NCBI GenBank assembly: GCA_016929395.1 | Contig: JAFGIX010000028.1 | Coordinates: forward strand, 1 to 54,142 | DNA from: Candidatus Zymogenus saltonus | GTDB lineage: Bacteria; Desulfobacterota; Zymogenia; Zymogenales; Zymogenaceae | Length of the DNA: 54,142 bases | Direction of reading: 5' to 3' | Shown: positions 10,037-22,219 of the stretch, one piece after another | How the letters are laid out: each line of letters opens with the position of its first letter | Position numbering within the stretch: position 1 is the stretch's first letter | Notes under the pieces: model-generated | What the model was told of the DNA's origin: nothing | The model's database searches: none | What the model saw: the letters and a program-made list of their open reading frames with translations, nothing else | Made by a program: the position numbers and the translations under genes

Positions 10037-10066
10037 TTGACATCCCTGCAAATATTTTGATAATAT
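10037..10066 (+). promoter_or_regulatory. Strong sigma-70-type promoter for the AOR leader
   Basis: A perfect TTGACA (10037-10042), an 18-bp spacer and TAATAT (10061-10066). Transcription would begin near 10073, about 25 bases before the first structured RNA copy and over 400 bases before the AOR start codon. This gives a long leader that carries both RNA elements. Confidence 0.75.
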
Positions 10067-10097
10067 CTCATCAATAGAAATACCACCACAATAGGCA

Positions 10098-10232
10098 CTT
10101 CCGATCCCACCCATCCCACCGGGATATTTGGGACGATAGGGGTATGGGAGCAATTCTCTACCCTGCCGCGTTTGCAAAGGAAGAATCACCGGCATGAGCA
10201 TATTCTCATGCGGATTGTTTCTTCCTTTTTTT
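10098..10232 (+). promoter_or_regulatory. Candidate riboswitch, copy 1, with terminator
   Basis: A structured leader RNA that recurs 202 bp downstream. CTTCC (10098-10102) can pair with GGAAG (10179-10183) to close a junction. Inside is a TCCC/GGGA stem capped by a hairpin whose sequence differs between copies but still pairs (ATCCC/GGGAT here). Next comes a GGGTA...TACCC stem (10140-10163), then a conserved single-stranded run ending in TTGCAAA. The closing GGAAG is also the 5' arm of the terminator, so junction formation and termination exclude each other. This implies that ligand binding would turn the gene on. I do not recognise the class. A molybdenum/tungsten-cofactor sensor is the first guess because AOR and MoaD-like genes follow. 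Confidence 0.7.
10179..10232 (+). terminator. Intrinsic terminator of RNA copy 1
   Basis: GGAAGAA pairs with TTCTTCC, with an inner GCATGAG/CTCATGC stem, followed directly by seven Ts (10226-10232). Its 5' arm is shared with the closing stem of the upstream structure. Confidence 0.8.
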
Positions 10233-10299
10233 ATTGTTTTTTCATAGCGGGAGATGAATCGACACCTATATAACTGACAGTTTTCATTTTATATAGTAT

Positions 10300-10437
10300 C
10301 TTCCGATCCCACGGATCCTCAGTGGATTGACGGGACGATAGGGGTATGGGAGTAATCTTCTACCCTGCCGTGCTTGCAAAGGAAGAATCACCGATGTAAT
10401 CGATTCGATTGCGTCGGTCGTTTCTTCCTTTTTTTTT
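10300..10437 (+). promoter_or_regulatory. Candidate riboswitch, copy 2, with terminator
   Basis: The second copy of the leader RNA. It keeps the CTTCC/GGAAG closing stem (10300-10304 with 10381-10385), the TCCC/GGGA stem, the GGGTA/TACCC stem and the TGCCG...TTGCAAA run. Its apical hairpin is GATCC/GGATT in place of ATCCC/GGGAT, so pairing is kept while sequence changes. In the GAG-capped stem a G-C pair becomes G-U. No well-spaced promoter lies between the copies, so both probably sit in one transcript and act in series. Confidence 0.7.
10381..10437 (+). terminator. Intrinsic terminator of RNA copy 2
   Basis: GGAAGAA (10381-10387) pairs with TTCTTCC (10422-10428), with an inner CCGA/TCGG-containing stem, followed by nine Ts (10429-10437). 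It ends about 67 bases before the AOR start codon, so it can gate AOR expression. Confidence 0.8.
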
Positions 10438-10504: not shown

Positions 10505-12235
10505 ATGGAAAAGATAGTAAGAGTGAACATGGACGACCTCACCGTAGAGGTGGAGCCGGTCCCGAAGGAATACCAGGGGCTGGGAGGAAGGGGACTTACC
10601 TCGACTATCGTGGCTTCTGAGGTGCCGCCGAAGTGCGATCCCCTCGGGCCGGAGAACAAGCTCGTGATAGCCTCGGGGCTTCTGAACAACACCTCCGCCC
10701 CCAACGCGGGGAGGCTGTCGGTGGGGTGCAAGAGCCCCCTCACCGGCACAATCAAGGAGGCTAACGCCGGCGGCGTTGTCGGCACCAAGTTCGGAAGGAT
10801 GGGAATCGCCGCCGTCATCGTCTCAGGAAAGCCGAAGAAAAAGGGACTCTACAAGCTCGTTCTCACCAAGGACGGCGGGAAGCTTGAGCCGGCCGATGAG
10901 CTGAAGGGCCTCGGTAACTACGACACGGTAGCCAAGCTGACCGAGGAGTACGGGGAGAAGATGGGCTACATCTCCATAGGCCAGGCGGGGGAGATGCTGC
11001 TTAAGGGGTCGTCCATCGCCGTGAACGACCGCGACAACCGCCCCACCAGGCACGCCGGTAGGGGAGGCGTCGGAGCAGTCATGGGCTCGAAGGGGCTCAA
11101 GACCATCGTCGTGGACGACACCGGGGGGAGACTCCCCAAGGCGGTTGACCCTGAGGGATTCAAGAAGGCATCGAAGAAGCTTTTGGACGCCCTCAAGACG
11201 CACTCGGTCACCTCGGAGGGCCTTCCCACGTTCGGCACAAACATCCTCGCCAACATCGTCAACGAGGCGGGCGGCTACCCCACCAGGAACTTCTCCGAGG
11301 GGAGGTTCGAGGGGGTGGAAAAGATCAGCGGCGAGACGCAGCACGACCTGATCCTCGAGCGGGGCGGAAAGATCAAGCACGGCTGTATGCCCGGGTGCGT
11401 CATCCAGTGCTCCAGGAGCTATCACGACAAGGACGGGAACTTCCTCACGAAGGGCCCCGAATACGAGACGATATGGGCAAACGGCGCCAACTGCGGTATC
11501 GACGACCTCGACGCTATAGCCCAGATCGACAGGCTCTGCGACGACTACGGCCTCGACACCATCGAGTGGGGGGATGCGATGGCCGTGGCAATGGAGGGCG
11601 GGGTCCTTGAATTCGGCGACGCCAAGGGAGCCATCAAGCTCCTCAAGGAGGTTCCCAAGGGAACGGAGCTGGCAATGATACTCGGCAACGGAGTGGTCGC
11701 CACCGGAAAGGCCTACAACGTCTCCAGGGTGCCGGCCGTCAAAGGCCAGGGACTTCCGGCATATGACCCAAGGCCGATAATGGGAATCGGCGTGACCTAC
11801 GCCACCTCAACCATGGGGGGAGACCACACGGCCGGATACGCCATAGCCCCCAACGTCCTCAAAGTCGGCGGAGAGGTCGACCCGTTGAAGCCTGAGGGGC
11901 AGGTGGATACCTCCAGGAACCTCCAGATAGCCACCGCGGCCGTGGACACCGCGGGACTGTGTCTCTTCATAGCCTTTGCGGTACTGGACATACCGTCCGG
12001 ATTCGAGGGGGTCTACGAGATGTTAAACGCCCAGTACGGGCTGAACCTCACCGCCGATGACGTGGGCGCCCTGGGGATGAAGATCCTGAAGATCGAGAGG
12101 GAGTTCAACAAGAAGGCCGGATTTACCAGCGCCGACGACCGTCTCCCGGATTTCTTCTACAAGGAAAAGCTGGCCCCCCACAACAAGGTCTTCGAGGTTA
12201 CGGACAAGGAATTGGATCAGGTATACAACTTCTGA
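10505..12235 (+). CDS. aor: Aldehyde:ferredoxin oxidoreductase (tungsten/molybdopterin)
   Basis: An AOR-family enzyme of 576 residues, oxidising an aldehyde to a carboxylate (or running in reverse) with ferredoxin in the cytoplasm of anaerobes. The N-terminal domain (LGGRGL near 26-31, SVGCKSPLTG, EANAGGVVGTKFGR) is typical of the bis-pterin binding fold. RHAGRGGVGAVMGSKGLK lies near 182-199. The Fe4S4 ligands are C294, C298 and C302 (CxxxCxxxC), with C486 in DTAGLC as the fourth. AAGGAGG lies seven bases before the ATG. Two MoaD/ThiS-like genes follow and a tandem RNA element precedes, which points to cofactor-responsive control. Whether W or Mo is used cannot be told. Confidence 0.93.
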   Translation: MEKIVRVNMDDLTVEVEPVPKEYQGLGGRGLTSTIVASEVPPKCDPLGPENKLVIASGLLNNTSAPNAGRLSVGCKSPLTGTIKEANAGGVVGTKFGRMGIAAVIVSGKPKKKGLYKLVLTKDGGKLEPADELKGLGNYDTVAKLTEEYGEKMGYISIGQAGEMLLKGSSIAVNDRDNRPTRHAGRGGVGAVMGSKGLKTIVVDDTGGRLPKAVDPEGFKKASKKLLDALKTHSVTSEGLPTFGTNILANIVNEAGGYPTRNFSEGRFEGVEKISGETQHDLILERGGKIKHGCMPGCVIQCSRSYHDKDGNFLTKGPEYETIWANGANCGIDDLDAIAQIDRLCDDYGLDTIEWGDAMAVAMEGGVLEFGDAKGAIKLLKEVPKGTELAMILGNGVVATGKAYNVSRVPAVKGQGLPAYDPRPIMGIGVTYATSTMGGDHTAGYAIAPNVLKVGGEVDPLKPEGQVDTSRNLQIATAAVDTAGLCLFIAFAVLDIPSGFEGVYEMLNAQYGLNLTADDVGALGMKILKIEREFNKKAGFTSADDRLPDFFYKEKLAPHNKVFEVTDKELDQVYNF

Positions 12236-12317
12236 CCGATTTGAAAGCCCCTTTAAGCCCGTCTCTTTTATGAGGACACGGGCAGGATCGATCGGCCTTT
12301 CATATTCAGGGAAACCG

Positions 12318-12554
12318 ATGAAGGTAGAGGTCAAGCTCTTCGCGGGATTCAGGAAGCACACGCCAGAGGAGGCGCAAAATTCTTTTTTCATGGATGTCCC
12401 TCACGGGTCCACCGTGGGGGACATCGTTGCCTCTCTGGGTCTTCCCGCCGACGTAAAGAAGATCATCTTCGTAAACGGCGTCCACGGGGATTCGACGACA
12501 AGCTTAAAGAGCAACGACCGGGTGGGGATATTTCCGCCCGTGGCGGGCGGATAA
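12318..12554 (+). CDS. MoaD/ThiS-like sulfur carrier with C-terminal GG
   Basis: A beta-grasp protein of 78 residues ending in the FPPVAGG tail required for adenylation and thiocarboxylate formation in MoaD/ThiS. It begins MKVEVKLFAGFRK; the ATG at 12318 has AGGGA five bases upstream and is preferred over an in-frame start at 12270. Sitting directly after aor, it probably supplies sulfur for the pterin dithiolene of the AOR cofactor. This position is common for AOR operons. Confidence 0.85.
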   Translation: MKVEVKLFAGFRKHTPEEAQNSFFMDVPHGSTVGDIVASLGLPADVKKIIFVNGVHGDSTTSLKSNDRVGIFPPVAGG

Positions 12555-12631: not shown

Positions 12632-12910
12632 ATGGCGGATATAACGGTAAGACTGTTCGCATCTTTGAGGAAGTACGGCCCGGGCGACCCCCCGGGCGTC
12701 ATAGAGATGAGCGTTGAAGAGGGTCTTGGGATCGAAGACATCGTATTCAGGCTCGGCATCCCGAAAGAGAGGGTGAAGATGATCATGAGAAACGGGAGGG
12801 TCGCCGTCTTCGAGGACACGGTCAACGAGGGCGACAGGATTGCCCTCTTTCCCCCGGAGGTCGCCTTCAACCTCTACATGGCCTTGAATTTCAGGGAAGA
12901 TATGAGATGA
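12632..12910 (+). CDS. MoaD/ThiS-like protein lacking the C-terminal GG
   Basis: A second beta-grasp protein, 92 residues, beginning MADITVRLFASLRKYGPG. It keeps the family core up to GDRIALFPPE, but instead of ending in GG it runs on for about 16 residues (VAFNLYMALNF region) and stops. It therefore cannot be activated as a standard sulfur carrier unless it is processed. It may be a partner or structural subunit of AOR, or a carrier trimmed by a protease. GGAG lies eight bases before the ATG. It is co-directional with aor and the GG-bearing paralogue. Confidence 0.8.
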   Translation: MADITVRLFASLRKYGPGDPPGVIEMSVEEGLGIEDIVFRLGIPKERVKMIMRNGRVAVFEDTVNEGDRIALFPPEVAFNLYMALNFREDMR

Positions 12911-12989: not shown

Positions 12990-13787
12990 TCAATCCCTGT
13001 CAAGAAAGAGTTTCTTTTCAATGGCACGCTTAACAATCCTTGAAAGTACATAGAGATCCAAAGGCTTCTCAATATAATCATACGCTCCCAGCTTGACTGC
13101 CGTGATCGCCGAGTCTTTGTCCGCATTTGCCGTAATAATGATCACTTGAGTGTTGGGAGAAACCGCCTTTACATGTCGTAACAAATCTATTCCATTTTTT
13201 TTGGGCATCATAATATCGGTGATGATTAAATCATGCCTCTTTTTATCAAATTCCAGTATGGCCTCATCGCCGTCAAGTGCCGTATCCAAACAACAGAATT
13301 TCTCGTCCTCGAGGACAGTAAATATTACATTTATTATTTCCTTTTCATCATCTGCGATGAGGATTTTTGCCTGAGCCAGCTTGTCGGTGTCCAATCCATA
13401 GGGATTTTCATATATAAACTCCAGAGGTCCTCGAATATTCTCATATGCCTTGTTTATCTCTTCGATCTGCTCTACGTCGAAAGGTTTTGTCAGGCTGATG
13501 TACACTCCTTCTTTTGCCGGGGATTCGAGAAGGTCTTCAACCTTATCCCCCGAGATGATCACACCCGATAGCTTTGGATCTATCTCTCGAAGCTTTTTAA
13601 GTGTTTGAAAACCATCAATCCCGGGCAATTTTACGTCAATATATGCAAGGCTGGCCTCATGCTCCCTCAAATAGTCAATAGCGTCATAGCCGTTTTTAAA
13701 GCTGACGACGGAATGCCCCATGAGCTCCATCACTTCCTCCAGGTATTTTCTGACGCCAGGATCATCATCGATTATCAGTATTTTCAT
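12990..13787 (-). CDS. Double-receiver response regulator
   Basis: A protein of 265 residues with two complete receiver domains and no output domain. The first (about 1-120) has the DDD acidic patch, IDVKLPGIDG with the phospho-acceptor near residue 52, and LTKPF. The second (about 140-262) has ADDEKE, TDIMMPKKNG and IEKPLD. It is the last gene of the minus-strand signalling operon and probably passes or stores phosphate in a relay. Its second receiver is a close paralogue of the C-terminal receiver of the preceding gene, sharing the NADK.SAI.AVK.GA.DYIEKP pattern. GAGGTG lies before the ATG. Confidence 0.88.
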   Translation of the reverse strand: MKILIIDDDPGVRKYLEEVMELMGHSVVSFKNGYDAIDYLREHEASLAYIDVKLPGIDGFQTLKKLREIDPKLSGVIISGDKVEDLLESPAKEGVYISLTKPFDVEQIEEINKAYENIRGPLEFIYENPYGLDTDKLAQAKILIADDEKEIINVIFTVLEDEKFCCLDTALDGDEAILEFDKKRHDLIITDIMMPKKNGIDLLRHVKAVSPNTQVIIITANADKDSAITAVKLGAYDYIEKPLDLYVLSRIVKRAIEKKLFLDRD

Positions 13788-13938: not shown

Positions 13939-15525
13939 TCAAGGGATGCTGTTCAACCCGACTCTATCCAATAACAATTTCTTTTCCGATGCTTTCTTTA
14001 CGGCTCTGGAAATTAAGGCATAGTCAAACGGTTTTTCTATATAATCAAAGGCGCCCCATTTTACCGCCGCAATGGCGGAATTTTTATCTGCATTGCCGGT
14101 GATAATGATTACTTGAGAGCCCGGCGATCTTGCTTTTATCTCTCTTAATACTTCGATCCCGTTCTTTTTCGGCATAACAATGTCAACGATAACGACATCA
14201 TGGCCGCTCTCTTCAAATTGTTTTACCGCTTCCTCACCATTTTCAGCGGTATCGATATTTGAGAACCCTTCATCGCCCAGGTAATCCTTGATTGCCTTTC
14301 TTATTTCCGGCTCGTCGTCAACAACCAGGATGTTCATATTAAATACATTTTTTTCACTTTCCGGCAAAAACCTCTCATCCGTCAATAAATAGTTTATTAT
14401 TTCCTCTTCCGCAAAAGTTATCTCTTCCCTTTCAAGAAAAAGTCTCCTGGTCTTTATGACGTTCCAAATGTAATAAGAAATCTCTTCAACAAACAAGTCC
14501 AGATCAGGGTGAGAAACGCCTTTCCCTGAAGACTCCACATCCGGTTTGATAATAAAATAGGATGCTCCAATAAAAAGGCACTTCATCTTTATTTTGGGAT
14601 CATTGATCGAAGCAATTATTACTACAGGTATGTGGGGAAAATTTTCATTAATGCCCTGCAAGAAGTCCATATCCGTATAGCCTTGATTCTCATCTTCGAG
14701 CTCTCTCAAGGAAAGGTCCAATACGACAACGGCGGGAATATTCTTCATTTCAAGTTCTTCTATTCTTTTGAATGCTTCTTGATTATTCCCGTAATTTTCC
14801 ACGTCATAGTTAAATCGTGTAAGTCCATCCGACAAAAAAGCGCTCATTGTTGGATCTTCTTCTATGATAATGACAATCTCCTTCGGCAAAAAGCTGTTGA
14901 TTTTCTTGGACACGTTATCGTATGTTTTCCTGATATTTGAAATATTGTCGATTTCATCGGCCAAATCCAAGACTCTCGTGAAAAGAGTGCTGTGTATTCT
15001 GCTTTCAGATAATTCTCTGCTGACATCTTTTAAATACCGCTCATCCTGTTTTTGAATTGATTTAATGTCAATAAGTAAATCGCTTGGAACATCCGAGAAG
15101 TCTTCATTATAAAACCTGTATATGCCATCCCAATATAACATGTTTTTTAAAACTTTCAGGCTGTTCTCTTTCATTGTATCATATAGGAATTGTTTATCTA
15201 TTTTTCCCGATTTTACAAGTTTCGACTCAAAAATATATTTAGGTTCTCTTTTTTGGAGCTCGAGTATTTCCTTGATATCGCTTTCATCTAAAATATTCTT
15301 TTTTATTAGATCATCCCTGAGGCTCTCATACATTCCGTGTGAAAAAACTACGGCAATGTAACCTTTGTAAAAGACAATAAATCCGTCTCCATCCTTAGAG
15401 CTGACATAAAAGTTTCCAGAAAGCTGGCCATCTCCGAAGCTTTTTAGAAGATCAATGAAATTTCCCCTCTTGAAGCTTCCTGATAATACAGTTTCACTAT
15501 CTTGGACTATATTTAATTGATTCAT
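13939..15525 (-). CDS. PATAN/DUF4388-like protein with two receiver domains
   Basis: A cytoplasmic protein of about 528 residues. The N-terminal ~165 residues resemble the PATAN/DUF4388 region (LSGSFKRGNFIDLLKSFG... and a helical segment), known from PatA-like regulators tied to motility and signalling. A central receiver-like domain (about 215-350) keeps an LDLSL Asp but has an insertion after it and a weak acidic patch. A canonical C-terminal receiver (about 395-515) has VDDEPE, VDIVMPKKNG and IEKPFD. The ATG at 15525 has AAGGA about ten bases upstream; a TTG at 15555 is less likely. The gene begins 31 bases after the giant kinase ends, so the two are co-transcribed. The output is unknown. 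Confidence 0.75.
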   Translation of the reverse strand: MNQLNIVQDSETVLSGSFKRGNFIDLLKSFGDGQLSGNFYVSSKDGDGFIVFYKGYIAVVFSHGMYESLRDDLIKKNILDESDIKEILELQKREPKYIFESKLVKSGKIDKQFLYDTMKENSLKVLKNMLYWDGIYRFYNEDFSDVPSDLLIDIKSIQKQDERYLKDVSRELSESRIHSTLFTRVLDLADEIDNISNIRKTYDNVSKKINSFLPKEIVIIIEEDPTMSAFLSDGLTRFNYDVENYGNNQEAFKRIEELEMKNIPAVVVLDLSLRELEDENQGYTDMDFLQGINENFPHIPVVIIASINDPKIKMKCLFIGASYFIIKPDVESSGKGVSHPDLDLFVEEISYYIWNVIKTRRLFLEREEITFAEEEIINYLLTDERFLPESEKNVFNMNILVVDDEPEIRKAIKDYLGDEGFSNIDTAENGEEAVKQFEESGHDVVIVDIVMPKKNGIEVLREIKARSPGSQVIIITGNADKNSAIAAVKWGAFDYIEKPFDYALISRAVKKASEKKLLLDRVGLNSIP

Positions 15526-15556
15526 AATCTTATTTCCTTCTTTAAATTTTACCAAA

Positions 15557-18500
15557 TCAATGAATATTCCTTTTTTCTACCAACAGCTCTACTAAAACAG
15601 AAAGTAATTCATCAATCTCGAAAGGCTTTTCTATGAATTTCGCATCGGAAACCTTGAAGAAATTCTGTGTCTCTTTTCCAAGTATATCCCCGGTAATGAA
15701 AACCATTCTTTCGGTCAAAGCCTGGTTGGTTTTTTTAACATAATTATAGATGCTCTCGCCGGTTAGACCCGGCATTTTCATGTCGGTGATTATGATATCA
15801 TAGTCTCTGCATTTTATAAGCTCGATCGCCTCTTCACCGCTTTTTGCCATCTCCACAATGTAACCCTCAACCTCCAAGGCCTCGACCAAAAAATCCCTCA
15901 GCGATTCTTCGTCTTCCACTACAAGGACTCTTATCTTCCCCTCCGGTTTTTCTACCGCTTTGGTATATTCCTCCTCTTCTTCTCTTATTATTTCTTGAGT
16001 AATCGGCAGTTGGATAATAAACTTGGTCCCCTTTCCCACCTCGCTCTCTACATCTATGGTCCCGTTATGGTCGGTTATTATCCCGTACACGATGCTCATC
16101 CCAAGGCCCGTTCCCTTCCCCACCTCCTTTGTCGTAAAGAAAGGATCAAATATCTTTTTTAGGTGCTCTTTTGGAATACCAATACCATCGTCCTTGAACT
16201 CGATTACAATCCTGTCTCCCTTGTGAAGAGTAAAGATGTCCAAAGTCCCCCCGTTTTTCTCGACAAGGGCGTCATGGGCATTGTTTATCATGTTAATGAA
16301 AACCTGCTGGAGTTGATAAGGATCGGCCGATGTCTTCGGAATATCCTCGCTGAGATTCAAGTTCATTTTAACATCATCCACCCGAAGCTCATATTCCCTC
16401 AGTCTGTAAGACTCGAAGATTATGTCGTTTATTGCTACCATCTTCTTCTCGGATTTGTGTTCTCTCGCAAAAGCGAGGAGCCCCCCCACGATCTTGGAGG
16501 ATCGGATTGACTCCTTCATTATAACCTCGAGCTTGTCCTTAATATCGGATGGAATGTCCCTTCGCATAAGTATCTGGGCGTTTCCTATTATTGAAGTGAG
16601 GGGATTATTGAGCTCGTGGGCGACCCCGGAGAGAATGCCGCCGAGACTCGATAATTTTTCAGCCTGAATCAGCTGTCCTTCCAGCTTCTTTCTTTCGGTG
16701 ATGTCGGTTATAACTCCGGTCATTCCCATTACCTCGCCGTCTTTTTTGATGAGACGGCTTGAAGAGCGGACAAAAATTATGGCGCCGTCTTTATCAACTA
16801 CCCTGTATTCAAAAGGCTCTATAATACCTTTTTGTGTTCTTTCTCGGCTCTCTAACAACAATGGAAGATCATCGGAATAAATAAAGTCGGAAAAAGGCTT
16901 GTCCATTAGATCTTCCGGATCATATTTTGATATATCGGCAATCCTTGGGCTGATATATGTAAAGTTTCCCTCCGCATCTATGTTGAAAATCACGTCATTG
17001 ACATTTTCCACGAGGGAGCGGTAGCTCTCCTCGCTCTTCTTGAGGGCATCATCCATCTTCTTTTGCTCGGTGACATCGTTTATGATTGCGGTTACACCCA
17101 CTATTTCTCCATCTTTTATTGTGGGACGGCCAGATGAATTGACAAATACTGTATTGCCATCCTTATCAATGGCCCTAAATACAAGAGATGAACTAGCACT
17201 AGTACCCTTCAAGACCTTTTCGCGGTTCTCCAATAAAAGCGGGAGATCATCGGGATGTATGAAGCTATGAAATGATTTGCCCATCAGATCTTCTATGTCG
17301 TATTTTAATACACTTTTCACCCTCGGGCTGATATAAGTGAAATTTCCTTCGACATCTAGATTAAAAATTACACTACTGATATTTTCCACGAGGGAGCGGT
17401 AGCTCTCCTCGCTCTTTTTGAGGGCATCATCTATCCGTTTCTGTTCGGTAATATTCTGGAATATGCCCCGCAAACCAACGCACTCGCCGTCCTTATACAC
17501 GGGCTCGCCGCGGACACGACACCAGATGAGCTTTTTCTTTGAAGTATAAACTTGCAGATCGAGATCAAAGAGCGTTCCATTTTCGATGGCCTTGTTATAT
17601 GCCTCAAAGAGAATCTCCCGATCACGTGAAGGGTAGAAGTCAAGGTGTTCATCAACGCCAGGCGGTTCCTCATCATATGGTATCTCTATTATGTCATAGA
17701 GAGCTTTAGTCCAAACCGCTTTTCCGGTGACGAGATCATGTTCCCATCCACCAATCGCGGCTATCTGCCCGGTTGAATTCAATATCCGCTCGCTCTCCAC
17801 AAGCGTCGCTTCTGCCTTCTTGCGCTCTGTGATGTCGCGGATATCGCATTGCACTACTTTTTTATGGTTGACAGAATAGACGTTGCTGACGAACTCAACA
17901 TGAACTTCCTTACCGCCCTTGGTTTGAAGCAGCTGGTCTTCATAGCGGACATATTTTTTTTCCTGCAGTTCGAGGAAATTCTCTTTATTTGCCGCGATGT
18001 CTTTAAAAACTCCTATCTCCCACAGCTCCTTTCCCAAAAGCTCATCGTGGGAATATCCCAGCAATATTTTTATAAAAGGATTTACATCCTCTATCCTTCC
18101 GGTGTCGGCATTTAGGATCAGTATTCCGTCCTTGGCGGCCTCAAAGAGCCGCCGGTATCGCGTCTCGGAGGCATGCAGGGCTTCTTCGGCCCTCTTTTTT
18201 TCGGTAATGTCTCGCGCTATTCCCCTAAAACCAATCACGTTTCCTTCTTTGTCCATTATGGGGGTAACTGATGTAGAAACAAAAACCCCATTTCCATCCT
18301 TTCTGATCAGTTCCCAATCGAATACCCTCTTTGCTTTTTTAGTCTTGAAAACCTCATTGAATACTTCATAGACTTCCGCGGCCGTCGCTTCATCCATATA
18401 ATCTCTGTTATTCATACCGAGCATCTCGGCTTCGGAATATCCAAGAATCCTGCACATCGAGTCATTGAAGAATGTAAAATTCCCTTTAACATCGACCTCA

Positions 18501-21500
18501 AAGTACCCGTCTTCGATGTTCTCAATTATTGTCCTATACTTCTCTTCGCTTTTTCTAAGCTCCTCCGCCGCCCGATAATGCTCGGTAATGTCCTGGTTGA
18601 CCCCGTAGGTCTTTACCGTGCGACCCTCTCCGTCTTTGACGATGAAGAAGCGCACCGCGATGTGGCCGACTTCCCCGTCGGCATACAGTATTCGATGTTC
18701 GAGCTGACGGCTGAAGTTCGGGTCGGTGGTCTCAATAGCCGCCTTCACCTCCCCGCCTACTATGTCCACATCGTCCGGATGGCAGAACCTGCGCGCATAG
18801 TCGGCCGAAGACAGTCGGTACCCGCCCATTTCTTCGGCCGTGGTGCGGAAAATGGTGTAGAAATTGTCGCTGAAGGTGAAGGTGTCGCCGGCGACGTCGT
18901 ATTCCCAGTTGCCGGCCCGGGCTATACGCAACGCATTGGACAACTGGGCTTCACTGTTTTGCAGCGCCTCCTCGGCCCGTTTTCGATCGGTAATGTCCCT
19001 CAGAATCCCTTGAAATCCCGTTATCTTATTGCCTTCACGAATGAGGTTTAAATACACTTCCAGAGTGCGCGCTTCACCATCTTTTCTTATGGTCTTATAG
19101 ACAAGATTTCTTACCGGCTCGCCCGTGCTATAGAGGTTATTATAGGCATTGAAAACATATTCTATCTCTTCGGGGTCAGCAAACTTCTTGAAGTTGCTCC
19201 CTATAATTTCTTCTCTCTCATAACCCATAACTTCTGCGAGGGCGTCGTTCATCGATGTGAAGTTCCCCTTTAGGTCCACTGTAAAAACAGCTTCTATGGA
19301 GTTCTCAAACAAACCCCTCCATTTCTCCTCGCTCTCCCCGATCTCCTGTTCCGCCCGCTTACGTTCGGTTATGTCTTGAACGATACCAGTGAGGATCGAA
19401 GCGTTGCCTCCATTGTCCAGAATAAGTTCGCCCGCTTCAGCCCAGACTACACGCGCTTTTCCGTCAGGCAAGACGACCCTGTATTCGAGAGGCAACGATT
19501 TTTTATCGTTTATAACGGACATGTTGGCACTCTCGACCGCCGACCTGTCATCCGGATGAATGGCACTTTTAATCACATCTTCGAGATTTCCGGTAAAATT
19601 CTCCTTTTCAATCCCGAAGATTCTATACATTTCATCAGACCACTTGACCCGATCTTCCTTTATATTCCACTCCCAACTACCAACATGTGAGACCTTCTGG
19701 GCTTTATTAAGTGAAGCCTCGCTTTTTTTTAGCGCATCCTCGGCCCGTTTTCGCTCGGTGATGTCCCTCATAATCTCCATCGAGCAGTAGTGTCCTTCAG
19801 GCATAAGAATTGGGGTGGTGTGAATCTCAAATATTGAACCGTCAGGAAGGATCGTTTCCTTTATAAACTGCCTGTGCTCGTTGATGGTCTTCACATTGGT
19901 ACATCCATTGCATGGAGCGTCGATGCCTAAATAGAATTCGTGACAGATATTTCCTTCTCCATTGCCGAAGCGCTCCTTGGCCGCCCGGTTTTGAAAAACA
20001 ATCCTGTAAGATTCGTCGATGATGTCTATTGGATCAACCATGAAGTTGACAACGTTCTCGTTGAACTGCTTGAGATACAATATCTTTTCTTCGGCGGTTT
20101 TCTGCGCGGTGATGTCGTTAATGAAGCCCTCAAGGACTATTTCATCGGACTCCCCCGAAGGGACTCCTACCCCCCTCTCCCATAACCACTTTTCCCGGCC
20201 ATCAGCTGAAATGATTCGATATGTGATCTCATAGGGACGTTTTTCTTTAAGGGCATTTTCGATCTCATCCCGTATGTACTGTTGGTCATCGGGGTGGTTA
20301 AGTGTTTTGCCAAATGAAACATTTTTGTTATCAATGAAATCTTCCGGGCCATAACCCGTAATTTCATAGCATCCTTCGCTGATGAATTCCATCGTCCAAT
20401 ATTCATCAGTTTTGCACCGGTATGCGATACCCGGGAGGTTGCTTATGAGAGTGGAAAGCTTTCGCTGGCTCTCCCTGAGGTCTATCTCCGCCTGTCTTCG
20501 TATCTCCTCCTTATCTATATAAGACAACGCATAGGCAATATCCTGAGCCGCTTCCTCAAGAAGTGCGATTTCATCGCCGCAAAAATAATTAATAGTGTCT
20601 GCATAGACATTCAGCGTGCCATAAAGGGTATCTTGATAAACGAAAGGAACAGAAACAGCTGATTTGTATCCCCTCTTTTCCGCCTCTTCTTTCCAAGGGT
20701 CGTAATCGGGATTATTCATTAGGTCATTAAATACGCACGTCTTTTTAGTTTTAATTGCCGTCCCCGTGGGCCCCTTTGCCGTTACGTCGCCATCCCATGT
20801 AATTGTGATATTATCCAGATATCCATTGTCAAATCCCCACTTAGCGATCGGGACCACCTTCTTGTGCTCTTCATTGATAAAACCTATCCATACAAAGAAA
20901 TACCCTGAAACCTCTACAAGTATCTCACAAACCTTCTTAAGGAGAACATCCTTGTCTTTCTCCTTAACGATAAGCTGGTTGATGTTCCTGATCGAGCTCA
21001 AGAGGCGGTTTAAATGATTTATATGATTTCTTGAATTCTGTAATTGCGTGATATCGGTAAAAGTTGTATATACCTTATAGGGCTCTTTTTCATCCGGACT
21101 GCAAATTGGGACCGCGTTTACATCTATCCATCGATACCCATCATCCGATGGATTGAATACACCCATTATCTGATTTTCAACCGCTTTTCCTGTCTTCAAC
21201 GCCGCCATCGAGGGATGAGTATCTCCCTGGAAATCCGATCCGTCCTCGTGTACAGCCTTCCAGCGGGGGTCTATCGAGGTCCTTCCCGTCATCTGGTCGA
21301 GGGTCAAACCGAGAATTTTTTCCGCGGCGGGATTGGCCGAGGTGATCTTTCCCTCTCTGTCCTGATAAACCACCCCCTGGGCCATGGTCTCGAAGAGCCT
21401 TCGGTGCTTCTCCTCGCTTTTTTTCAACTTATCTTCCGCTCTATTTCGCTCTATGATCCTCCCGATCCGCTCCGAGATGGTCTTTACGAGATTGCGCTCC

Positions 21501-22219
21501 TCCTCCAAAAAAGGCTCTGCGCCTTTTTTGGTCGTATCTTCCAACAAGTGGATCTCTATGCCTCCTAACTGTTCGCCCGATAGTAATATCGGCTCGGACA
21601 ATAAGGATTTGGCTTCCTTAAAATTCCGCGACCTGAACTCCCTGTCTCCAACTTTTATCCTCGCAACGGTGTTTTCCGGATTTAAAAAGGCGGGGGGTAT
21701 TGTATCAACGATTCTTTGGACTAGGTCTTCGACGTCCGCATCTTCCTTTTCGACTATTTTTAATATCTCATGGAGACAATTAAGCTCCTTGACGCGCTCC
21801 CTTAGATTGCTTGCGGTTTTTCTTAATTCCACAAGAAGCCTGCACCGCTCGATGGAGTGTTTGATCGTATCCCTTAAAAAAAACGGATTGATCTTATCCT
21901 TCAAGAGATACGACTGCGCGCCGTCTTTCACCGCTTGGATCGCCAGATTCTCGTCGGAAAGGCCGCTCAGGATAACAAACGGAGTTTGAGGTGCAACAGA
22001 ATACGCTTTGTAAAATGTTTCAAATCCGCTTGAATCGGGGAGACCAAGATCGGTTAAAACCACATCGTACTCTTCGGTGGAAAGCTTTCTTAATCCCTCG
22101 GAGAGGCGGTTTGCGGTCTCAAGGTGAAACTCCCCCGGCGATTCCGACAGCATCTCCCTTGCCAGCCTGACGTCGGCGGGGTTGTCCTCGATGTATAATA
22201 TCCGTATTGGTTTTTTCAT
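15557..22219 (-). CDS. Giant hybrid histidine kinase with 11 PAS domains
   Basis: A soluble kinase of 2220 residues. In order: receiver (6-125, Asp57), GAF-like domain (about 145-262), PAS (275-395), GAF (about 422-565), ten further PAS domains (about 585-1848), HisKA (GVAHELNN, His1868), HATPase (FINMINNAHDAL, DDGIGI, GKGTGLGM; to about 2073) and a C-terminal receiver (2096-2212, Asp2146). The third PAS (about 722-825) has C759-H760, C770 and C773 in a CH...PCxGC pattern that could bind metal or a cofactor. The tenth and eleventh PAS are near-duplicates. No membrane segment is present. It starts one base after the single-domain receiver ends. It is far longer than a typical hybrid kinase and probably integrates many cytoplasmic cues; the ligands are unknown. 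Confidence 0.92.
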   Translation of the reverse strand: MKKPIRILYIEDNPADVRLAREMLSESPGEFHLETANRLSEGLRKLSTEEYDVVLTDLGLPDSSGFETFYKAYSVAPQTPFVILSGLSDENLAIQAVKDGAQSYLLKDKINPFFLRDTIKHSIERCRLLVELRKTASNLRERVKELNCLHEILKIVEKEDADVEDLVQRIVDTIPPAFLNPENTVARIKVGDREFRSRNFKEAKSLLSEPILLSGEQLGGIEIHLLEDTTKKGAEPFLEEERNLVKTISERIGRIIERNRAEDKLKKSEEKHRRLFETMAQGVVYQDREGKITSANPAAEKILGLTLDQMTGRTSIDPRWKAVHEDGSDFQGDTHPSMAALKTGKAVENQIMGVFNPSDDGYRWIDVNAVPICSPDEKEPYKVYTTFTDITQLQNSRNHINHLNRLLSSIRNINQLIVKEKDKDVLLKKVCEILVEVSGYFFVWIGFINEEHKKVVPIAKWGFDNGYLDNITITWDGDVTAKGPTGTAIKTKKTCVFNDLMNNPDYDPWKEEAEKRGYKSAVSVPFVYQDTLYGTLNVYADTINYFCGDEIALLEEAAQDIAYALSYIDKEEIRRQAEIDLRESQRKLSTLISNLPGIAYRCKTDEYWTMEFISEGCYEITGYGPEDFIDNKNVSFGKTLNHPDDQQYIRDEIENALKEKRPYEITYRIISADGREKWLWERGVGVPSGESDEIVLEGFINDITAQKTAEEKILYLKQFNENVVNFMVDPIDIIDESYRIVFQNRAAKERFGNGEGNICHEFYLGIDAPCNGCTNVKTINEHRQFIKETILPDGSIFEIHTTPILMPEGHYCSMEIMRDITERKRAEDALKKSEASLNKAQKVSHVGSWEWNIKEDRVKWSDEMYRIFGIEKENFTGNLEDVIKSAIHPDDRSAVESANMSVINDKKSLPLEYRVVLPDGKARVVWAEAGELILDNGGNASILTGIVQDITERKRAEQEIGESEEKWRGLFENSIEAVFTVDLKGNFTSMNDALAEVMGYEREEIIGSNFKKFADPEEIEYVFNAYNNLYSTGEPVRNLVYKTIRKDGEARTLEVYLNLIREGNKITGFQGILRDITDRKRAEEALQNSEAQLSNALRIARAGNWEYDVAGDTFTFSDNFYTIFRTTAEEMGGYRLSSADYARRFCHPDDVDIVGGEVKAAIETTDPNFSRQLEHRILYADGEVGHIAVRFFIVKDGEGRTVKTYGVNQDITEHYRAAEELRKSEEKYRTIIENIEDGYFEVDVKGNFTFFNDSMCRILGYSEAEMLGMNNRDYMDEATAAEVYEVFNEVFKTKKAKRVFDWELIRKDGNGVFVSTSVTPIMDKEGNVIGFRGIARDITEKKRAEEALHASETRYRRLFEAAKDGILILNADTGRIEDVNPFIKILLGYSHDELLGKELWEIGVFKDIAANKENFLELQEKKYVRYEDQLLQTKGGKEVHVEFVSNVYSVNHKKVVQCDIRDITERKKAEATLVESERILNSTGQIAAIGGWEHDLVTGKAVWTKALYDIIEIPYDEEPPGVDEHLDFYPSRDREILFEAYNKAIENGTLFDLDLQVYTSKKKLIWCRVRGEPVYKDGECVGLRGIFQNITEQKRIDDALKKSEESYRSLVENISSVIFNLDVEGNFTYISPRVKSVLKYDIEDLMGKSFHSFIHPDDLPLLLENREKVLKGTSASSSLVFRAIDKDGNTVFVNSSGRPTIKDGEIVGVTAIINDVTEQKKMDDALKKSEESYRSLVENVNDVIFNIDAEGNFTYISPRIADISKYDPEDLMDKPFSDFIYSDDLPLLLESRERTQKGIIEPFEYRVVDKDGAIIFVRSSSRLIKKDGEVMGMTGVITDITERKKLEGQLIQAEKLSSLGGILSGVAHELNNPLTSIIGNAQILMRRDIPSDIKDKLEVIMKESIRSSKIVGGLLAFAREHKSEKKMVAINDIIFESYRLREYELRVDDVKMNLNLSEDIPKTSADPYQLQQVFINMINNAHDALVEKNGGTLDIFTLHKGDRIVIEFKDDGIGIPKEHLKKIFDPFFTTKEVGKGTGLGMSIVYGIITDHNGTIDVESEVGKGTKFIIQLPITQEIIREEEEEYTKAVEKPEGKIRVLVVEDEESLRDFLVEALEVEGYIVEMAKSGEEAIELIKCRDYDIIITDMKMPGLTGESIYNYVKKTNQALTERMVFITGDILGKETQNFFKVSDAKFIEKPFEIDELLSVLVELLVEKRNIH

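Follow-up and report, generated by a model that had tools for sequence, protein, structure and literature searches.

The closest described relatives of the RNAs considered here are members of the RF01055 (Moco/Tuco) riboswitch family that lack stem P3. They track tungsten-cofactor metabolism and were described as probably sensing tungsten cofactor (Regulski et al. 2008, PMC2408646); members with a GCAA loop, four of which were noted, lack the tetraloop receptor (PMC2408646). In E. coli, genetic data indicate that the cofactor itself is the signal, and deletion of P3 led to loss of control and did not change specificity (PMC2408646). Ligand binding in vitro has never been achieved for Moco/Tuco RNAs, the cofactors being unstable (Regulski et al., PMC2408646). 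The role of P3 as a metal discriminator is a correlation. Serial arrangements are known as well. A triple array of P3-less Moco RNAs with terminators was found in Syntrophomonas wolfei (PMC2408646), tandem Moco and Wco riboswitches appear in a review from 2022 (PMC9481103), and tandem TPP riboswitches of Bacillus anthracis are cited in two of the papers (Welz and Breaker 2007, in PMC2408646 and PMC12121620). For Eubacterium limosum, a 2026 paper mentions control of iron transporters by tungsten-dependent riboswitches (PMC13390469).

We analysed a 54,142-nucleotide stretch of the Candidatus Zymogenus saltonus genome (contig JAFGIX010000028.1), hereafter the window. It contains an aldehyde:ferredoxin oxidoreductase (AOR) gene (10505..12235, plus strand; PF02730 213.9 bits, PF01314 271.3 bits) with an AAGGAGG motif shortly before its ATG. 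AOR is a classical tungsten-enzyme family. The operon continues on the same strand with genes for a MoaD/ThiS-like protein (12270..12554; PF02597, 38.2 bits) and a second MoaD-like (Ub-Mut7C/ThiS) protein (12632..12910; PF14451, 38.6 bits), and the order AOR-moaD-moaD is preserved in G003, a genome of the same family. The candidate sigma-70-like promoter TTGACA-16-GATAAT (10037..10064, plus strand), which has 11 of 12 matches in a consensus scan, is apparently the sole strong promoter for the leader and the operon, as had been proposed. A possible second promoter for the downstream RNA copy (10274-10302) has 9 of 12 matches and a -10 box overlapping P1, and was rejected.

The leader contains two candidate aptamers on the plus strand. 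The first (10098..10183; RF01055 match over 10087-10198) consists of P1 (10098-10102/10179-10183), P2 (10105-10133), P4 (10139-10164) with a GCAA loop, and P5 of the form GC/GC (10165-10166/10174-10175). It is followed by terminator 1 (10176..10232, plus strand; -23.7 kcal/mol), an inverted repeat 10176-10188/10216-10228 whose 5' arm, AAAGGAAGAATCA, includes the 3' arm of P1. The second aptamer (10300..10385; match over 10289-10400) has P1 at 10300-10304/10381-10385, P4 at 10341-10366 with a GUAA loop, and P5, again GC/GC, at 10367-10368/10376-10377. Terminator 2 (10378..10437, plus strand; -31.0 kcal/mol) begins with the 3' arm of this P1. Both terminators are strong stems ending in at least seven T, and both copies lack P3 and the tetraloop receptor. 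Thus the original prediction of tandem riboswitches behind one promoter, each with its own terminator, was correct, including the use of the closing GGAAG as the terminator 5' arm.

The copies are spaced by 202 bp and can be aligned without gaps over 101 nt at 81% identity. The identical CTTCC/GGAAG closing stems, the GGGTA/TACCC stem and the TGCCG...TTGCAAA strand noted earlier are all present, and the apical pairs of P2 have changed in sequence and retained pairing (ATCCC/GGGAT and GATCC/GGATT). The conserved TTGCAAA is only in part a junction strand, since its GC forms the 3' side of P5 (GC/GC) and its AAA is the P5-P1 joint.

The consensus of these RNAs had not been recognised as that of a known class. 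The Rfam covariance search assigns both to RF01055, with 39.2 bits for copy 1 and 41.4 bits for copy 2 over the full model (1-135), above the gathering cut-off of 36, and so a new riboswitch class is ruled out. No plausible match to Moco-II or another Rfam family was observed in the window region or in variant elements (defined below) of 15 loci, which rules out a Moco-II identity too. According to the Rfam alignment and pair counts, the conserved junction is surrounded by P1, P2, P4 and P5 in both copies. The P3 columns of the model are deleted, a five-nucleotide linker CGATA standing in place of the P3 stem of the Moco subtype. Two usual but not obligatory features of the family are altered. 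P5 is GC/GC instead of CC/GG, with compensation that leaves the stem intact; and the GAAA tetraloop of P4 with its P2 receptor is replaced by GCAA and GUAA loops with no CCUAAG/UAUGG. The window RNAs are therefore a new member of RF01055; the class, the P3-less subtype and the tandem idea are already known, both tandem Moco/Wco arrays (PMC2408646, PMC9481103) and the P3-less Tuco form having been published. They share with the P3-less RNAs of Regulski et al. 2008 (PMC2408646) the P1-P2-P4-P5 scaffold, the junction nucleotides, the receptor-less GCAA loop and the tungsten-enzyme context. They differ in the outer pair of P5, which is G-C rather than C-G, in the P1 3' arm feeding a terminator, and in RF01055 scores near or, for other such elements, under the cut-off.

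In both regions the predicted fold is far more stable than those of dinucleotide shuffles (z -4.5 and -4.0), and not one of 200 shuffles equals it. Covarying homologues were found: in 24 homologues, 18 of 28 pairs are changed on both sides, and the covariation score is 0.41, as compared with 0.144 +/- 0.014 for shuffled data and 0.093 or less for slid pairings. This covariation supports the aptamer fold. It also bears on the possibility that leader attenuation depends on a protein or on polymerase kinetics, no ligand being sensed directly. Direct binding has never been demonstrated for the Moco/Tuco family; still, a large conserved junction with covariation is typical of aptamers, and the genetic data from E. 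coli implicate the cofactor itself (PMC2408646), so we regard such attenuation as very improbable.

The proposed Mo/W-cofactor ligand class agrees with membership in RF01055, and the P3-less form suggests the Tuco type. Absence of P3 coincides here with tungsten-related genes, that is, the AOR gene and a gene for a TupA-like tungstate-binding protein, although the latter scores 257-258 bits, under the NCBIfam cut-off of 400. The TupA-like gene is situated behind an ordinary RF01055 element and before moeA. One could suppose that the window RNAs sense Moco instead of the tungsten cofactor, as they are of the same family, and ordinary P3-less elements of the phylum also precede modA. On the other hand, P3 is absent, the target is AOR, and the one tungstate-type TupA found in this genome is itself under the same riboswitch family. 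Moco sensing thus seems quite unlikely.

The genome encodes four AOR-family genes and has at least six RF01055-type elements, namely the two tandem copies, one more of the same variant on contig C17, and three ordinary elements preceding tupABC-moeA, a NiFe hydrogenase and an NAD-type aldehyde dehydrogenase; as read from the sequences, all six lack P3. The C17 element (G000:C17:40508-40606; L098 4009-4107, minus strand) precedes a formate dehydrogenase alpha gene, and its terminator begins in P1. It was found by the variant model and missed by RF01055 at E 10. The formate dehydrogenase gene is split by an in-frame UGA, which probably encodes selenocysteine.

The variant is defined by P5. In its signature the outer P5 pair is flipped, giving GC/GC for CC/GG; the receptor is usually missing and P2 is often short. 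Using RF01055 together with a model derived from five window-like sequences, we collected 110 distinct elements from the phylum of the window (L126, a false parse, was left out). Sorting by P5 alone yielded 21 variant and 89 ordinary elements. GGAAG in P1 was tried as the mark of the variant; it holds in this phylum and fails in Bacillota, where several elements have GGAG, and for this reason P5 was used. Of the 89 ordinary elements, 86 carry a GAAA-type loop and 80 a receptor-like P2, whereas the receptor is absent from 18 of the 21 variant elements. The latter are shorter, some only 58-70 nt, and are spread over seven families. Covariation in the variant alignment is strong. Elsewhere in the junction (CCGA, CGAUA, AAAGG) the two forms agree, and they coexist in one genome.

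The window copies thus belong to a variant mostly missed by RF01055. Only three of 16 variant elements tested reach its gathering score, and five are not listed at E 0.5; it follows that tungsten-enzyme regulons are under-annotated. The variant model R1 gives 102.9 bits for copy 1 and 100.4 bits for copy 2, both of which were in its training set. Neither the P5-flipped form nor the ON/OFF split discussed below is described in the openly readable papers that were searched. Miniature variant aptamers of 58-70 nt, with P2 reduced to a short hairpin, were observed in L121 (1501-1720), L137, L140, L143 and L144, each followed by a terminator beginning in P1. Members of this size would suit structural work.

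Covariance-model scanning recovered the flipped-P5 variant before tungsten-enzyme genes in two phyla. In the phylum of the window, an AOR or formate dehydrogenase gene lies downstream of 19 of 20 variant elements with a readable gene and of 5 of 88 ordinary ones (Fisher p about 1e-15). The variant targets are AOR (12 elements at 10 loci), formate dehydrogenase (7), a DsbA-like gene (1) and a contig end (1). Ordinary elements precede moaA (18), porin (14), tupA (13), moeA (9), modA (5), AOR (5), NiFe hydrogenase (4), aldehyde dehydrogenase (3) and other genes. Among the best-scoring matches in Bacillota, the corresponding numbers are 15 of 15 variant and 1 of 14 ordinary elements (p about 2e-7), the variant targets being AOR (14), formate dehydrogenase (1) and unknown (4), and the ordinary ones tupA (7), moeA (4), tupB (1), moaA (1), formate dehydrogenase (1) and unknown (11). 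A few loci in the Bacillota set are from the 16 genomes found by way of AOR homologues, and some are deltaproteobacterial. Downstream genes were called by their similarity to representatives. All P values given here and below overstate independence, because the elements share ancestry, tandem pairs are counted twice and the models that detected the variant had been trained on variant sequences; that the pattern recurs across families and in a second phylum carries more weight. The variant-type element of L111 (1501-1601, minus strand), preceding the DsbA-like gene, has no recognisable terminator and is the single exception to the association with tungsten enzymes.

The two forms also differ in their terminators. 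In a fold-based scan the terminator overlaps P1 in 19 of 21 variant elements, and L107 is a twentieth case seen by eye. That scan also gave 7 overlaps among the 89 ordinary elements, all of them due to weak folds over long distances that disappeared in a strict ungapped scan and were discarded. In the strict scan, terminators using P1 are found in 15 of 21 variant and none of 89 ordinary elements of the phylum (Fisher p about 5e-14), and in 11 of 19 variant and none of 25 ordinary elements in Bacillota (p about 1e-5). Bulged stems escape it, copy 1 being an example; most of the cases it misses are of this kind and still overlap P1. In ordinary elements the terminator is separate from P1 or there is none. 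Their P5 strand pairs with the downstream terminator region above chance (longest match 6.5 nt as opposed to 4.9 nt in shuffled sequences; 4.5 and 4.7 nt, respectively, for the variant), which fits an OFF switch with an antiterminator. In many ordinary elements (L006, L007, L156, L162, L182 and others) the terminator contains CAAACACGGG, complementary to CCCGUGUUUG of P5, and this pairing is likely to be the antiterminator for OFF control. Judged from such pairing alone, the variant would act as an ON switch by antitermination via P1, and the ordinary form would mostly be OFF.

If so, the flipped P5 would be a sequence rule for both sign and target, with flipped elements turning on tungsten enzymes and ordinary elements controlling uptake and biosynthesis. 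Single genomes contain both forms, which makes the rule amenable to reporter tests. One possibility is that the flip instead marks a separate aptamer specificity, for a different cofactor form (such as W-bis-MPT as opposed to a dinucleotide form) or another metal-pterin, distinct from what ordinary P3-less RNAs bind. In its favour, every variant element carries the flip in a conserved junction-adjacent pair, ordinary and variant RNAs are present together in one genome, and small core changes altered specificity in the guanine and c-di-GMP classes (PMC7266159). However, the remainder of the junction is unchanged, and the variant precedes both AOR and formate dehydrogenase genes. AOR is a bis-MPT enzyme and formate dehydrogenase a bis-MGD enzyme, and hence no single cofactor form fits the targets. 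Overall, a distinct specificity is rather unlikely. The stronger form of this idea should be given similarly low weight: the P5-flipped RNAs might be a separate subclass, overlooked for the most part, whose aptamer prefers a different ligand (one particular form of tungsten cofactor) and which has its own ON platform, licensing tungsten-enzyme synthesis in Bacillota and the phylum of the window, the members of 58-70 nt being the minimal aptamer.

We consider it likely that the AOR leader carries two RF01055 riboswitches of the P3-less tungsten-cofactor type in series, both of the predicted ON-acting variant. The reuse of the P1 3' arm GGAAG by the terminator in both copies agrees with the ON logic suggested originally. 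Minimum free energy structures of both leaders include the terminator, so the default state would be OFF. With no cofactor, the terminators would form and transcription would end at about 10232 or 10437. Binding of the tungsten cofactor would lock P1 through the junction and deny GGAAG to the terminator, and the polymerase would read through into AOR and the two MoaD-like genes. Apo-enzyme would then be made only when cofactor can be supplied. For copy 1 the aptamer-plus-tail state lies about 11 kcal/mol above the terminator state and for copy 2 about 14 kcal/mol, and thus switching would have to be co-transcriptional. In general, the variant may be used chiefly to turn on tungsten enzymes, the window AOR being a putative one, and the ordinary P3-less form before the tungstate uptake and moeA genes of the same genome is predicted to be OFF. 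However, the five ordinary elements preceding AOR run counter to this split of targets, as does the variant element of L111 before a DsbA-like gene.

Since both terminators must be passed, read-through would be the product of two switches, with a lower (squared) leak and a moderately steeper response. By arithmetic, two identical sites in series reduce the ligand span from 10 to 90% from 81-fold to about 40-fold. By precedent it is plausible that tandem copies sharpen the response, as first suggested; the sharpening would be modest and the gain in dynamic range large. The S. wolfei triple (PMC2408646), the arrays of PMC9481103 and the window have in common serial copies, separate expression platforms and proposed digital control. 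The earlier arrays precede genes for MPT synthesis and transport, or Wco hydrogenase and arsenic-response genes, whereas the window tandem precedes AOR. With the B. anthracis TPP tandem it shares two full riboswitches and two terminators for one gene, and differs in the ligand and in the predicted ON polarity.

The tandem is not an old conserved trait of the family. In G003 a single element precedes an AOR 84% identical to that of the window, and the window copies are more similar to each other (80%) than to this element (71% and 75%), consistent with duplication in the lineage of the window. The single copy of G003 could also mean that just one window copy works and the other is a relic of recent duplication, with no special response of the tandem. 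This is improbable, as both copies keep P1, the junction, P5 and an intact overlap of P1 with the terminator, and sequence changes in the terminator loops and at the apex of P2 have left pairing intact. Moreover, a second variant tandem, of much shorter elements, was found before AOR in a genome of another family (G208, L121), suggesting that the arrangement arose more than once, and two working switches remain the preferred reading. Near 17 AOR homologues of other lineages neither RF01055 nor convincing R1 matches were observed; weak matches near one homologue (L038) are GC-rich low-complexity sequence.

Ordinary P3-less elements in the family of the window have further targets. One precedes the NiFe hydrogenase small subunit gene in four of four family genomes (G000:C54:103952-104121, in L089; L050; L053; L057). 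Another precedes the NAD-type aldehyde dehydrogenase gene in three (G000:C3:85413-85556, in L087; L052; L058). Together with the AOR ON switch, the latter suggests a swap between tungsten-free and tungsten-dependent aldehyde oxidation.

Downstream of the AOR operon, an open reading frame on the minus strand (15557-22219) encodes, judging from the translation, a sensor-kinase-like protein of 2220 amino acids with many PAS-like repeats. It is adjoined by two response-regulator genes, one (12990-13787) assigned by PF00072 and the other (13939-15555) judged from its translation.
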